A program made the position numbers and the translations under genes. Below the pieces are notes generated by a model, which worked only from the letters and a program-made list of their open reading frames with translations, did not search any database and was not told the DNA's origin. Shown here one piece after another: positions 3,679 through 9,110 of a stretch of DNA of 64,000 nt (its first letter is position 1; each line of letters opens with the position of its first letter). Location of the stretch: assembly GCF_018215265.2 (NCBI RefSeq), contig NZ_CP136562.1, positions 4,340,001 to 4,404,000 on the forward strand. The letters are read 5' to 3'. Source of the stretch: Paenarthrobacter sp. GOM3. GTDB lineage: Bacteria; Actinomycetota; Actinomycetes; Actinomycetales; Micrococcaceae.

Positions 3679-5103
3679 ATGGACACCGCTGCCAGCGACA
3701 TCGCCGTGGACCGGCACTACGATTTGATCATCATCGGCACCGGGTCCGGGAACTCGATTCCCGGACCGGAGCTCGAAGACCGGTCGATCGCGATCATCGA
3801 AGAAGGAACGTTCGGTGGTACCTGCCTGAATGTCGGCTGCATTCCGTCAAAGATGTACGTTCACACTGCCGACACCGCACTGGACATTGCTGACTCCAAG
3901 CAGCTGGGCCTCGACGCCCAGGTCAACTCCGTGGACTGGCCGGGCATCGTCGAGCGTATCTTTGAAAAACGGATCGACCCCATTGCCGCTTCAGGCGAGG
4001 ATTACCGCCGTGGCCCGCGGAGCCCCAACATCGACGTCTACGACCACCACGCCGTTTTCGTCGGAGAACGTACTTTGCGCATAGGCGAAGGCGCCCACCA
4101 AAAAACCATCTCCGGTGACCAGGTAGTCATCGCCGCCGGCTCCAGGCCCATGATTCCCGATGCCATCGCAGCTTCGGGCGTGCGGTATTACACCAACGAG
4201 GACATCATGCGGCTGCCGGAGTTGCCCAAATCCTTGGTGATCATTGGCGGGGGCTACATCGCCATGGAGTTCGGCCACGTTTTCGACGCCCTCGGCGCCG
4301 ACGTCACCATCATTCCCCGCTCAACGCTCCTGCGGCATCTGGATCACGACCTCCACGACCGGTTCAACGCCCTGGCCGCCAAACGCTTCGACATCCGGCC
4401 GGCCCGGAGCACCGTAGGGGCCGAGCAGACAGCCCAAGGCATAACAGTCAGGCTCGACGACGGCACCTCCGCGACCGGCGAGGTACTGCTGGTAGCCACG
4501 GGGCGCGTCCCCAACGGGGACCTGCTGGATCCCGCCGCTGGCGGGATCGAGGTGAACGGGCATGGTCGCATCAAGGTCGACGAGTACGGGCGATCAACCT
4601 CCGCGCCCGGTGTCTGGGCCCTTGGCGACGTCTCTTCCCCCTACATGCTCAAGCACGTCGCCAACGCCGAGATGCGCTCCGCGCGCCACAATCTGCTGAA
4701 CCCGGACAACCTCCGAAAAATGCCGCACGACCATGTTCCCGCGGCCACGTTCACCAACCCGCAAATCGCAACCGTGGGCATGACCGAAGCCCAAGCCCGC
4801 GAAAACGGCTACGACGTGACCGTCAAGATCCAGGACTACGGAGACGTCGCATACGGCTGGGCTTTGGAGGACACCACCGGGATCTGCAAACTCATAGCCG
4901 ACCGCGACACCGGCAAACTCCTCGGCGCCCACTACATGGGACCCCAGGCGTCCACCCTCATCCAACAGATGATCACCGTCCTGGCCTTCGACCTCGACGT
5001 ACGCGACTTCGCCGCCAAACAGTATTGGATCCACCCCGCACTGCCCGAAGTCACCGAAAACGCGTTGCTCGGCCTCACGTTCAACGGGACGGGCCCGCAG
5101 TGA
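3679..5103 (+). CDS. mtr: Mycothione reductase
   Basis: A 474-residue pyridine nucleotide-disulfide oxidoreductase that would reduce mycothiol disulfide with NADPH in the cytosol, keeping the actinobacterial thiol mycothiol reduced. Visible are the FAD-binding GTGSGN (20-25), the redox-active pair C49/C54 in GGTCLNVGC, a second nucleotide-binding GGGYIAMEFG, the FAD-contacting ALGDVSSPY and the C-terminal HPALPE dyad (H452, E457). The N-terminal GTGSGNSIP, rather than GGGPGG, is typical of mycothione reductases as opposed to lipoamide dehydrogenases. ATG 3679 follows GAGGATCACCAA. It is divergent from the epimerase gene. Confidence 0.93.
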   Translation: MDTAASDIAVDRHYDLIIIGTGSGNSIPGPELEDRSIAIIEEGTFGGTCLNVGCIPSKMYVHTADTALDIADSKQLGLDAQVNSVDWPGIVERIFEKRIDPIAASGEDYRRGPRSPNIDVYDHHAVFVGERTLRIGEGAHQKTISGDQVVIAAGSRPMIPDAIAASGVRYYTNEDIMRLPELPKSLVIIGGGYIAMEFGHVFDALGADVTIIPRSTLLRHLDHDLHDRFNALAAKRFDIRPARSTVGAEQTAQGITVRLDDGTSATGEVLLVATGRVPNGDLLDPAAGGIEVNGHGRIKVDEYGRSTSAPGVWALGDVSSPYMLKHVANAEMRSARHNLLNPDNLRKMPHDHVPAATFTNPQIATVGMTEAQARENGYDVTVKIQDYGDVAYGWALEDTTGICKLIADRDTGKLLGAHYMGPQASTLIQQMITVLAFDLDVRDFAAKQYWIHPALPEVTENALLGLTFNGTGPQ

Positions 5104-5240: not shown

Positions 5241-6182
5241 TCAGTCGAGTAGCGCTACGCCGAACTCAGCGACGACGGCCCGCAACTCTCTGAGGTAGCG
5301 CTGTGCCTGGTCGGTGAGGGGGATTGAGGCGTGGCCGATCCAGCCGATCTCGATGCGTTCGTCAACGTCCAGCGGGATCGCGACGATCTCCGGGTCGAGC
5401 TGCCCGCTGATGATACCCGTCGAGATCGTGTAGCCGTGGAGTCCGATCATGAGGTTGAAGATCGTGGCACGGTCAGAGACCCGGATCTCCTGCTTACTGG
5501 ACAAGGTGGAGAGAATCTCCTCGGCGAAGTAAAAAGAGTTGTTCGCACCTTGATCGAAGGTTAGCCGCGGCATGTCGGCGAGATCGGCGAGAGTCGCACG
5601 CTCTTTTGAGGCCAGCGGGTTGTTCCGTGAAATGAAAATGTGCGGATCGGCGAGGAAAAGAGGAGTGAACGCGAGCCCGGATTCCCGGAGCAGCTTGTCG
5701 ATGACCTTCCGGTTGAAATCGTTCCGGTAGAGGATCCCTATCTCGCTGCGGAGCGTCCGGACATCCTCGATGATGTCCCAGGTACGGGATTCACGCAGCG
5801 AGAACTCGTATTCCGCCACATCACTGGCTTTGACCATCCTGACGAAGGCGTCCACAGCGAACGAGTAGTGCTGCGTCGACACACCGAGCAGGCGGCGCCG
5901 CGGTGGCCTGCCGAGGTAGCGCTGCTCGAGGAGTGCGAACTGCTCCACCACTTGCCTCGCGTAACCGAGGAACTCCACCCCGTCGGCGGTGAGGGTGACT
6001 CCGCGGGCGGAGCGAACCAGGAGCGCACGGCCCACCCGGGCCTCAAGGTCCTTCATCGCCGCAGACATTGTCGGCTGCGCTACGTAGAGAAGGTCGGCGG
6101 CCGCGGAGATCGAACCCTCAGCTGCAACTTCTATGAAGTAACGGAGTTGCTGCAGCGTCAATCCGCTCGAAATCTGGGCCAT
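5241..6182 (-). CDS. LysR family regulator of the mes operon (inferred)
   Basis: A 313-residue LysR-type regulator: N-terminal winged helix-turn-helix (about 9-66, with the typical AAADLLYVAQPTMSAAMKDLE recognition region) and a type 2 periplasmic-binding-like effector domain. It is transcribed away from mesX-mesD-flavin reductase, with a 120-bp shared control region, the standard arrangement for a local LysR activator. By context it probably senses homocysteine, methionine or sulfur state, but that is inference. The ATG at 6182 lacks an obvious ribosome site; TATAGAAT lies about 6 nt upstream on its strand, which would suit a leaderless transcript. Confidence 0.87.
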   Translation of the reverse strand: MAQISSGLTLQQLRYFIEVAAEGSISAAADLLYVAQPTMSAAMKDLEARVGRALLVRSARGVTLTADGVEFLGYARQVVEQFALLEQRYLGRPPRRRLLGVSTQHYSFAVDAFVRMVKASDVAEYEFSLRESRTWDIIEDVRTLRSEIGILYRNDFNRKVIDKLLRESGLAFTPLFLADPHIFISRNNPLASKERATLADLADMPRLTFDQGANNSFYFAEEILSTLSSKQEIRVSDRATIFNLMIGLHGYTISTGIISGQLDPEIVAIPLDVDERIEIGWIGHASIPLTDQAQRYLRELRAVVAEFGVALLD

Positions 6183-6194
6183 AGGAAGATTCTA

Positions 6195-6206
6195 TATGCA
6201 CGCATA
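6195..6206. promoter_or_regulatory. Palindrome in the lysR-mesX control region
   Basis: TATGC-AC-GCATA is a 5-bp perfect inverted repeat with a 2-nt centre, 13 bp upstream of the lysR start and about 100 bp upstream of mesX. It has the size and dyad form of a LysR contact site and overlaps the putative -10 (TATAGAAT on the minus strand) of lysR, which would suit autorepression. No binding evidence is available. Confidence 0.4.
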
Positions 6207-6302
6207 GCAACCATTAGTTACCTGATATCCCCCGGAAGGCTGCACCATGAATACATACCCCTCGGAAAGGCCGTCTCCGGCCCATCAACGGATTGGCATC
6301 AC

Positions 6303-7295
6303 ATGGCAGACGACTTCACCTTCAGTATCACCACGACTCCCTTCGACGAGGACTACTCCCCGTCGGAAGGCTCGCGGATCACCACGAATTTCGCCAACCT
6401 GGCACGGGGCGAGCACCGCCAGGAGAACCTCCGTAACGCCTTGACCATGATTCGGCGCCGCTTCAACGATCTCGCGAGCTGGGACAACCCGGACCGGGAC
6501 CGTTACACCCTCGAGCTTGAAATCGTTTCCGTGCAGATCGAGTTCACTGCAGAAGGTACGGATCAGCAGTTCCCACTGTTCGAGGTTCTCGACATCCAGA
6601 TCGTTGACCAGCTGAACGGGGTCCGCCACCAAGGGATCGTGGGGAACAACTTCTCCTCCTACGTCCGTGACTTCGACTTCAGCGTCGTACTGCCAGCGGC
6701 GTCCGCAGCGGCAGGCAAGCCCACCGTTCCCGAGGACTTCGGCGATCTTCACGGCAAACTGTTCCAGCAATTCCTCAATTCCCCGGCATGCCAGGAACGC
6801 TTCCCGCAGCCGCCAGTGGTGTGCATCAGCGTCTCCACGAGCAAGACGTACCGGCGAACGGAGAACCGCCACCCGGTCTTGGGCGTCGAGTACCAGCAGG
6901 ACGAGTTCTCGCTGACGGACGCGTATTTCGCAAAGATGGGCCTGCAGGTTCGCTACTTCATGCCACGCGGCAGCGTTGCGCCGCTCGCCTTCTACTTCCG
7001 CGGCGACCTGCTCAACGACTACTCCAACCTGCAGCTCATCGGCACGATCAGCACCATGGAGACGTTCCAGAAGATCTACCGCCCGGAGATTTACAACGCG
7101 AACTCCGCCGCCGCCGTCGTCTACCAGCCGAACCTGGGAGAGCAGGATTACTCGCGAACCCAGATCGCTTACGACCGCGTCGAGCGCAGTCAGCTCGCGA
7201 TCACTCAGGCGAAGTACACGGAGGAACACTTCATTACGCCCCACAAGGATCTATTGGACCAGTGGACCGCCAAATACCCCGCTCTCGTCAACTGA
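6303..7295 (+). CDS. mesX: MesX-like protein (DUF1852)
   Basis: A 330-residue soluble protein recognised as DUF1852, found almost only beside a short MetE-like protein. In the published description of folate-independent methionine synthases, as I recall it, DUF1852 (MesX) is needed together with oxygen for MesD activity; its chemistry is unknown. I see no nucleotide-binding, iron-sulfur or signal motif. Features are ITTTPFDEDYSP at the start, a central EFTAEGTDQQFPLFEVLDIQIVD-like block and RPEIYNANSAAAVVY near the C-terminus. ATG 6303 is the only plausible in-frame start but has no good ribosome site. An out-of-frame ATG at 6247 has one (see findings). mesD follows after 20 nt. Confidence 0.83.
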   Translation: MADDFTFSITTTPFDEDYSPSEGSRITTNFANLARGEHRQENLRNALTMIRRRFNDLASWDNPDRDRYTLELEIVSVQIEFTAEGTDQQFPLFEVLDIQIVDQLNGVRHQGIVGNNFSSYVRDFDFSVVLPAASAAAGKPTVPEDFGDLHGKLFQQFLNSPACQERFPQPPVVCISVSTSKTYRRTENRHPVLGVEYQQDEFSLTDAYFAKMGLQVRYFMPRGSVAPLAFYFRGDLLNDYSNLQLIGTISTMETFQKIYRPEIYNANSAAAVVYQPNLGEQDYSRTQIAYDRVERSQLAITQAKYTEEHFITPHKDLLDQWTAKYPALVN

Positions 7296-7315
7296 CCCAC
7301 GGAGAATCGTCAATC

Positions 7316-8362
7316 ATGAACACACTTTTGCCCACCACCGTTGTTGGAAGCCTGCCGAAACCATCGTGGCTCGCACAGCCGGAGACTCTGTGGTCCCCGT
7401 GGAAACTGGACGAAGACACGCTGATCGAGGGCAAGCAGGATGCGCTGCGCATTGCCATCCACGAGCAGAGCCGACGCGGCATCGACATCGTCAGCGACGG
7501 CGAACAAACCCGCCAGCACTTTGTCACCACCTTCATCGAGCACCTCAGCGGGGTCGACTTTGAACAGCGCAAGACCGTGCGCATCCGCGATCGCTACGAC
7601 GCGAGCGTGCCGACCGTCGTCGGACCGGTGCGCCGCGAGCGGCCGGTATTCGTCGACGACGCGAAGTTCCTCCGCGCAACCACCGACCGGCCGATCAAAT
7701 GGACTCTGCCCGGTCCAATGACCATGGTGGACACTCTTTTCGATGACCACTACAAGAGCCGCGAGAAGCTGGCCTGGGAGTTCGCTGCAATCCTGAACCA
7801 GGAGGCGAAAGAGCTGGAGGCGGCCGGCGTGGACATCGTCCAGTTCGACGAACCCGCGTTCAACGTCTTCCTCGATGAGGTCAAGGACTGGGGCGTGGCT
7901 GCGCTGGAGCGAGCGGCAGAAGGGCTGCGCGCGGAGACCGCCGTGCATATCTGCTACGGCTACGGGATCAAGGCGAATAATGACTGGAAGGCGACGCTCG
8001 GCTCGCAGTGGCGCCAGTACGAGGAAACGTTCCCGCTGCTTCAGAGGTCCAGCATCGACATCATCTCGCTGGAATCCCAGAACTCCCACGTGCCCATGGA
8101 CCTCATCGAGCTCCTCCGCGGCAAGAAAGTCATGCTCGGGGCAATCGACGTCGCAAGCGAGACGATCGAGACCCCGGAGGAAGTCGCCGACACGCTCCGC
8201 AAGGCCCTGCAGTTCGTCGATGCGGACAAGCTCATCGCCAGCTCCAACTGCGGCATGGCACCGTTCCCCCGCGACGTCGCACTGGCCAAACTGAGTGCCC
8301 TCAGCGCAGGGACCAGAATTGTCCGCGAGGAACTTGAGCGCTCCGCCCCCAAGGTGTCATAA
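7316..8362 (+). CDS. mesD: Folate-independent methionine synthase, MesD type
   Basis: A 348-residue protein equal to the C-terminal catalytic barrel of MetE without the N-terminal folate-binding half. The zinc ligands are visible: H211 and C213 (HICYG), E253 (LESQNSH) and C312 (SNCGMAP). It would methylate homocysteine to methionine using a methyl donor other than methyl-tetrahydrofolate; pairing with DUF1852 places it in the MesD group rather than MesA-C, which are tied to corrinoid proteins. ATG 7316 follows GGAGA. The next gene, a flavin reductase, starts 2 nt after the stop, so the three genes form one operon. The physiological methyl donor is not known from sequence. Confidence 0.87.
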   Translation: MNTLLPTTVVGSLPKPSWLAQPETLWSPWKLDEDTLIEGKQDALRIAIHEQSRRGIDIVSDGEQTRQHFVTTFIEHLSGVDFEQRKTVRIRDRYDASVPTVVGPVRRERPVFVDDAKFLRATTDRPIKWTLPGPMTMVDTLFDDHYKSREKLAWEFAAILNQEAKELEAAGVDIVQFDEPAFNVFLDEVKDWGVAALERAAEGLRAETAVHICYGYGIKANNDWKATLGSQWRQYEETFPLLQRSSIDIISLESQNSHVPMDLIELLRGKKVMLGAIDVASETIETPEEVADTLRKALQFVDADKLIASSNCGMAPFPRDVALAKLSALSAGTRIVREELERSAPKVS

Positions 8363-8364
8363 CG

Positions 8365-8937
8365 ATGTTTCACGCCTACCCCGCAGACACGTGGCTCGAG
8401 GCTCCGAAGCAAAGCTTTCCGTCCTCCCTCTCGGCCGACGAATTCAAAGCACTGTTCCGCGGCCACCCGGGGGGTGTCGCCGTCATCACGGCGGATGCCG
8501 GCGACGGACCGGTGGCACTGACGGTTTCGTCGGTGGTGTCAGTGAGTGCGGAACCTCCGTTGCTGATTTTCTCGGTCTCGGCACTGTCCTCTGCGTCCGA
8601 GGTGCTCTCGCGCGCCGAAACCGTCGTCGTGCACCTGCTGGACGCGCACGACGTCGACTTGGCGAAGTTTGGAGCGACCCCTGGCGCCGACCGCTTTGAC
8701 CAGACGCACCGCTGGTCGGCCCTTGCAACCGGCGAAGCGGTGTATGACGATGTCCGCGCATGGGTGCGCTGCGCCGTCATCAATCGCATGGAAGTGGGGA
8801 CCTCCACAATCATCGCCGTTCACGCCCTGGAGTCCCGCGTGATGCGTGACGTCCAAGCGGGCGAACCCGGCGACGCTCTGGTCTACCACAACCGTTCATG
8901 GCACCGGCTGGGCGAGCATTCCAAGCTTGAAGGCTAA
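8365..8937 (+). CDS. Flavin reductase family protein of the mes operon
   Basis: A 190-residue protein with the FMN-binding split-barrel flavin_reduct fold: FRGHPGGVAVITAD, then DGPVALTVSSVVSVSAEPPLLIFSVS, which is the family FMN-binding block, and a C-terminal strand ending ALVYHNRSWHRL. Proteins of this type use NAD(P)H to make free reduced flavin for a partner oxygenase. It is coupled to mesD with a 2-nt gap. Since MesD-type synthases need oxygen and MesX, this reductase is a natural candidate for the source of reduced flavin or electrons; that link is inference. Confidence 0.83.
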   Translation: MFHAYPADTWLEAPKQSFPSSLSADEFKALFRGHPGGVAVITADAGDGPVALTVSSVVSVSAEPPLLIFSVSALSSASEVLSRAETVVVHLLDAHDVDLAKFGATPGADRFDQTHRWSALATGEAVYDDVRAWVRCAVINRMEVGTSTIIAVHALESRVMRDVQAGEPGDALVYHNRSWHRLGEHSKLEG

Positions 8938-9081: not shown

Positions 9082-9110
9082 TGAGGGGTGGTCATAGAGA
9101 CCACCCCTCA
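9082..9110. other. Strong hairpin without T-tract
   Basis: TGAGGGGTGGTC pairs perfectly with GACCACCCCTCA (12-bp stem, 5-nt loop, 9094-9098). It lies 145 nt after the flavin reductase and 22 nt before the DUF1275 start. It may end the mes transcript or act in the 5' leader of the DUF1275 gene; there is no U-run on either side. Confidence 0.5.

Follow-up and report, generated by a model that had tools for sequence, protein, structure and literature searches.

A compact locus in Paenarthrobacter sp. GOM3, in which a LysR-type regulator gene diverges from mesX, mesD and a flavin reductase gene, was analyzed within a 64,000-nucleotide stretch of contig NZ_CP136562.1 (positions 4,340,001 to 4,404,000; hereafter the window). 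We consider it likely that in this soil bacterium MesX and MesD form a methionine synthase that needs neither vitamin B12 nor folate, that the reductase serves it as a replaceable helper, and that the divergent LysR controls the operon. The system as such has been published already, and this locus illustrates it well; in the literature searched we came across neither the constraints on the role of the reductase nor the shared control region.

MesD and MesX were named by Price, Deutschbauer and Arkin in 2021, who used transposon fitness and E. coli complementation to show that both are required; MesD activity depends on MesX and oxygen and does not require methyl-folate (PMC7857596). E. coli mutants in metE or metF are complemented by the mesX and mesD genes of S. 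koreensis under air but not under anaerobic conditions, metF being dispensable, and the complementing plasmids carried only these two genes and no reductase (PMC7857596). The original prediction for the window, made from the sequence alone, had proposed a single oxygen-dependent, folate-independent methionine synthase system with an unknown methyl donor, and on both points it agrees with the published picture (PMC7857596). We found no later paper on the donor in a literature search that most subscription papers fell outside, and MesD, MesX and DUF1852 are not mentioned in the main text of two 2025 papers (PMC12366255, PMC12478193). MesD-bearing strains appear to escape nitrous oxide (PMC13059711).

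Gene content of the locus

The four-gene order and tight spacing described by the original prediction are present in the window (Table 1), with 20 nt separating mesX from mesD and 2 nt separating mesD from the reductase gene. The start of mesX was set at the ATG at 6303, where homologues align from residue 1; the longest open reading frame opens earlier, at 5640. MesX matches PF08908, named 'Putative oxygenase MesX' in Pfam, over its full length (profile positions 1-323 of 323; 564 bits, gathering score 25). It is 98% identical to MesX of Paenarthrobacter aurescens TC1, which is listed as a MesD-only organism (PMC7857596).

MesD scores 662 bits against the 'methionine synthase' model NF006589 (cut-off 392), and its closest solved relative is 3rpd (E 3.8e-179), a structure treated as MesD (PMC7857596). 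The zinc ligands proposed at H211, C213, E253 and C312 were confirmed at those positions, the His-Cys-Glu-Cys set of the MesD family being conserved in the window protein. S12, E63 and D178 are set 51 and 115 residues apart, as are, in a comparison by eye, Ser22, Glu73 and Asp188, the homocysteine-binding residues of 3RPD (PMC7857596). MesD shares the catalytic barrel and zinc site with MetE but lacks its N-terminal folate domain: the 348-amino-acid (aa) protein has no PF08267 match, and it reaches 113 bits against TIGR01371, for which the cut-off is 930.

The reductase belongs to PF01613 (96.7 bits, gathering score 27), as do HpaC, HsaB, RutF and FerA, the reductases of two-component flavin monooxygenases, and it adjoins a putative oxygenase. 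Unlike these proteins, it falls below every listed equivalog cut-off (best RutF, 66.8 bits against 254.75), and its putative partner MesX has PF08908 as its sole Pfam match. The published system and the window share the gene pair, the zinc ligands, a nearby flavin reductase, an aerobic host and the lack of MetF. They may differ in spacing, the S. koreensis reductase being Ga0059261_2931 and its mesD 2929, so that one gene may intervene there, in contrast to the 2-nt gap in the window (PMC7857596).

Table 1. Features of the mes locus and its control region (positions in the window)
Feature	Position	Strand	Remarks
Divergent LysR-type regulator	5241..6182	-	313 aa; HTH_1 3.3e-20, LysR_substrate 9.1e-07
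mesX (DUF1852/PF08908), putative oxygenase	6303..7295	+	330 aa; PF08908 1.1e-169
mesD, folate-independent core methionine synthase	7316..8362	+	348 aa; PF01717 1.7e-41
Flavin reductase, accessory	8365..8937	+	190 aa; PF01613 1.9e-27
LysR-type operator candidate, half-sites CATAG, CTAT, CATAG	6180..6207	.	overlaps lysR start
Conserved TTACCTGAT box	6218..6226	+	putative activator site or -35 region
-10-like CACCAT, putative mesX promoter	6243..6248	+	
Leader hairpin GGCCG-TCTC-CGGCC	6269..6282	+	
Conserved GGATTGGC	6290..6297	+	just 5' of mesX start, at usual Shine-Dalgarno position

Methionine synthesis in the host genome and the genus

The host genome (one contig, 4.46 Mb, scored 100% complete) has a single PF01717 match, mesD itself, and no match to the MetE N-terminal domain (PF08267), the MetF family (PF02219) or the MetH activation domain (PF02965), which fits a folate-independent synthase. 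An MTHFR-like paralogue acting as a hidden MetF was considered and rejected, none being found in the host genome in a search that did not cover the flavin-independent mycobacterial type by name. The one PF02574 match lies in a frame of 346 aa, which is less than a complete MetH would need, and it looks more like a homocysteine S-methyltransferase. MesXD is the only methionine synthase detected in this strain, with MetH sought solely through its activation domain and, in 59 relatives, also through the length of the PF02574 frames.

Within the genus, MesX occurs in 11 of 37 genomes, among them all five that have no PF02219 match (one-sided Fisher p 0.001, no kinship correction). It is found in 6/7 genomes without a MetE N-domain versus 5/30 with one. 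One genus relative (G018, 99% complete) has no match to MesX, the MetE N-domain or PF02574.

A conserved gene pair and a patchy reductase

The survey of gene order covered 93 mesX loci: that of the host genome (L001), 12 genus loci and 80 named loci. L001 and L003 both represent the window's own place, which is thus counted twice, and some genomes may be common to the genus and named sets. In all 93, mesD follows mesX on the same strand. Using an iterated profile, we found a PF01613-type reductase in the fetched flanks of 41 loci and none near mesXD in 52, so that the genome comparison suggested by the original prediction bears out the pair, and the trio is rejected as a general rule. The flanks after mesD are short in places (412-434 nt in L002-L013, 655 in L059, none in L053), and because the L053 contig ends within mesD, the presence of a reductase there cannot be judged. 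Reductase-bearing loci come from the Arthrobacter group, part of the Microbacteriaceae, Demequina and three Rhizobiales, the last with a more distant reductase; at L029 the gene lies upstream on the opposite strand. No consistent substitute gene followed mesD in the reductase-less loci, as judged with a greedy open reading frame caller that is noisy in GC-rich DNA.

Two Glutamicibacter loci hold a broken reductase. In G. soli (L061) it is in pieces in different frames, and in G. protophormiae (L059) only residues 21-72 are recognizable, in two frames, within the 655 nt before the contig end. Their mesX, mesD and lysR reach scores comparable to those at L048, a Glutamicibacter locus that is intact. 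Draft errors are a possible cause, and would need to have struck the same gene twice. At L048, L052, L058, L059, L061 and L067, genes of the O-acetylhomoserine sulfhydrylase/cystathionine gamma-synthase family lie upstream of the mes locus, so that homocysteine synthesis and MesXD cluster there.

Across whole genomes, a reductase ortholog of at least 190 bits was present in 17 of 47 tested and absent from 30. Seventeen of those 30 also lack a MetE N-domain above cut-off and a MetH activation domain, which leaves MesXD as their sole detected synthase (G042, G059, G060, G062-G066, G068, G069, G071, G072, G079, G086, G088, G100 and G101; genome completeness is not given for G059-G104). These 17 hold more distant reductase matches (26-44% identity), and two of them are the genomes with the broken Glutamicibacter genes.

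The reductase is nevertheless associated with MesX. When 297 genomes were drawn evenly from the order, with the reductase scored on at most 11 candidates per genome, MesX occurred in 31 genomes and a reductase ortholog of at least 189 bits in 13; MesX was present in 11 of these 13 versus 20 of the 284 others (Fisher p 1.8e-10, no kinship correction). The reductase adjoins mesX-mesD in 10 of the 11 and lies 12.6 kb away in G370. On a wider list (E <= 1e-40), MesX occurred in 11/23 carriers versus 20/274 other genomes. The cut-offs of 189 and 190 bits were chosen after the scores were seen. At two Microbacterium loci (L099, L100) an unlinked reductase sits amid genes of the O-acetylhomoserine sulfhydrylase/cystathionine gamma-synthase family, of which only the L099 gene was typed. 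Taken together, the co-occurrence with MesX, the lack of an ortholog in 17 MesXD-only genomes and the sulfhydrylase neighbors indicate a reductase that is tied to methionine synthesis yet replaceable, and the most suitable reading is that of a lineage-specific helper.

The divergent regulator and the control region

A divergent LysR homologue of at least 235 bits is present at 78 of the 93 mesX loci; at L090 the homologue shares the strand of mesX, at L067 it is absent, and the 13 loci from Proteobacteria yielded only weak LysR-type matches (24-36 bits). In Proteobacteria, the PF08908-metE2 genes belong to the regulons of MetR, a LysR-type regulator that senses homocysteine (Leyn et al. 2014, PMC4239095), so that there too a LysR-type regulator stands over PF08908 and a metE-like partner. 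By score the window LysR is not MetR (41.4 bits against NF011950, cut-off 382), and its CATAG/CTAT boxes differ from the MetR consensus ATGAA-N5-TTCAT given in that study (PMC4239095). It is likely an analogous but different regulator.

Conservation of the control region was counted in 77 distinct actinobacterial leaders, after removal of the 13 proteobacterial ones, L001 as a duplicate, and L075 and L078 with uncertain starts. The putative operator is nearly universal: CATAG-N5..8-CTAT occurs in 76 leaders and CTAT-N6..9-ATAG in 73, compared with means of 0.11 and 0.40 in 100 base shuffles. The downstream box, TTWCYYGAT, is found in 71 (shuffled mean 0.2), and a -10-like CAnnAT[TG] in the expected region of 67, a count for which no control was run; a generic sigma-70 scan found no promoter. 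Between these boxes and mesX lies a leader element consisting of a hairpin and GATTGG (6269-6297), both of which are present in 58/77 leaders. Counted separately, a stem of at least five pairs was seen in 61 (shuffled mean 16.3), and 70 had GATTGG or a variant one mismatch away (shuffled mean 2.5), 54 of them in exact form. Our model R1 of the element matches the window at 6255-6305 with 50.1 bits, the same leader being in its training set as L003. Rfam 15 gave no match in the window, and three leaders scanned individually (the window's own, L036 and L058) were nowhere near a gathering score. At L030 and L031 a -10-like CACCAT abuts the mesX ATG (just upstream of 5001) and the leader element is gone, so that mesX looks leaderless there. 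L053, L055 and L060 have a different GC-rich leader without GATTGG, in which L053 and L060 show by eye a Shine-Dalgarno-like stretch, GAGAGGAG.

The nature of this element is less clear than its conservation. Eight cells of the hairpin changed on both sides, a value reached in 0/500 shuffles; double changes at 3/5 pairs were equalled in 28/500 and 32/500 shuffles, and further pair types in 12/500 and 92/500 (two tests each). These shuffles ignore relatedness, and the stem has only five pairs. Of the alignments, A2 comprises 49 of the 77 leaders, selected by eye because they are diverse and carry the element; in A3, which was fitted to the structure, 5 of 51 rows are weak matches outside mesX leaders. 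RNAalifold returned no consensus structure, the folding z-scores of eight leaders (-1.64 to +0.38) are ordinary, and L036 and L058 prefer another fold. Given these folding results and the mixed covariation, an RNA switch is not established. Candidate roles are those of a regulatory RNA, a DNA site bound by a protein and an unusual element of translation; a protein-binding palindrome in the DNA would resemble the leader hairpin.

Over 59 relatives, the 11 strongest R1 matches all lie 5' of mesX, several of them training sequences, and the mesX leader of G042 reaches only 24.6 bits, below some chance matches. Outside mesX, 7 and a further 20 places were inspected and none was convincing. The top R1 match outside mesX (G046, 35.7 bits) precedes an open reading frame that by eye resembles an aldo/keto reductase and looks like a GC-rich chance hit. 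At L123 (G018) and L128 (G022), both without mesX, a hairpin and TAGATTGGC precede an open reading frame, EamA transporter-like by eye at L123; TAGATT at these places may be just the -10 box of a leaderless gene. In the literature searched, we found no paper linking mesX with a riboswitch and no description of the control region, and the words LysR and riboswitch are absent from the main text of PMC7857596.

Farther out, a mycothione reductase gene (3679-5103; TIGR03452, 788 bits) lies upstream of the LysR gene, and a perfect 12-bp inverted repeat without a T run (TGAGGGGTGGTC/GACCACCCCTCA; 9082-9110) occupies the interval between the reductase gene and a DUF1275 gene.

Proposed mechanism and alternative explanations

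In the mechanism that we propose, MesD, which has the zinc barrel of MetE but no folate domain, would transfer a methyl group to homocysteine held at the zinc, and MesX would consume oxygen in producing or presenting the methyl donor. The flavin reductase would most likely supply reduced flavin, probably to MesX, and other cellular reductases could substitute for it. Flavin use by MesX and its partnership with the reductase are presumed here; a dedicated enzyme would raise the reduced-flavin supply. The divergent LysR would act on the operon through the conserved box array, probably answering a metabolite of the methionine pathway. More specifically, MesX might be an oxygenase with a fold unknown among solved proteins, converting a common metabolite into the methyl donor of MesD with the help of reduced flavin and oxygen, and the PF01613 reductase would be its exchangeable source of electrons, retained as a dedicated gene in some lineages and lost where a general reductase suffices; we offer this version tentatively, and consider it rather doubtful.

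Several observations weigh against the proposal. None of the tools used gave a sign of flavin or oxygen chemistry in MesX: by sequence it has no solved relative at E <= 1, and its predicted structure, a confident model, has no clear match among solved folds, including flavin and oxygenase folds. The reductase was not found near mesXD at 52 loci and has no ortholog of at least 190 bits in 17 MesXD-only genomes; conversely, G262 and G297 carry a mes-type reductase without MesX (2/13 ortholog carriers of the order). At 11 of 13 places where the reductase lies away from mesXD, no sulfhydrylase gene was found beside it with the one query used. Finally, the PF02574 methyltransferase could yield methionine if given S-methylmethionine.

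The original prediction needs revision on the role of the reductase. Its suggestion that the enzyme could supply reduced flavin agrees with the hint of redox chemistry with a flavin already read from the neighboring gene in print (PMC7857596), but a constant or indispensable place for the reductase in the system is not supported. Nor is the further suggestion that the reductase could explain the need for oxygen: mesX and mesD suffice in E. coli (PMC7857596), and the gene is patchy across loci and genomes and broken in two Glutamicibacter, so that the reductase alone cannot explain it. A stronger version would make MesX and the reductase an obligate two-component flavin monooxygenase, as in HpaB/HpaC, so that the reductase would be an obligatory third subunit from which the oxygen requirement stems. 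The 2-nt spacing, the HpaC/HsaB/RutF type of the enzyme, its co-occurrence with MesX, and the oxygen requirement with the published suggestion (PMC7857596) all speak for it. We nonetheless consider it unlikely in view of the E. coli rescue, even though the reductases of E. coli could stand in, and of the 17 MesXD-only genomes without the ortholog, two of them with broken genes, even though distant reductases are present in these genomes. Two Xanthomonas genomes point the same way, having no match to the window reductase at E <= 0.001, yet both have MetH and other reductase families were not sought.

The opposite possibility is that the reductase is an unrelated neighbor whose place is owed to chance or to a promoter in common. 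In its favor, no such reductase was found nearby or elsewhere in the genome in many mesXD carriers, and unlinked copies lie mostly beside other genes. We find it less probable still, given that 11 of 13 ortholog carriers have MesX, with the genes adjacent in 10, and that unlinked copies at L099 and L100 sit amid sulfhydrylase-family genes. Moreover, in Acinetobacter baumannii B12 lowers a DUF1852 gene (log2 -8.3) together with a flavin reductase gene two locus tags off (-2.5) (PMC12892962). A different kind of alternative leaves mesXD secondary and derives methionine mainly from S-methylmethionine salvage by the homocysteine S-methyltransferase-like gene, for which the single PF02574 match with its 346-aa frame is the evidence. 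That route depends on external S-methylmethionine, and all five genus genomes without a PF02219 match carry MesX; we regard it as very improbable.

Implications

This Paenarthrobacter offers a clean host for asking where the methyl group of the MesXD pathway comes from: no other methionine synthase was detected in it, and it stands near P. aurescens TC1, a strain that can be grown in defined medium. Our survey suggests that mesX and mesD are the core of the system and the reductase a helper, so attempts at reconstitution should avoid assuming that the reductase is indispensable; genomes that lack the gene or carry it in broken form can serve as natural controls. For the signal sensed by the pathway, a handle is provided by the conserved LysR-type boxes together with the leader element.

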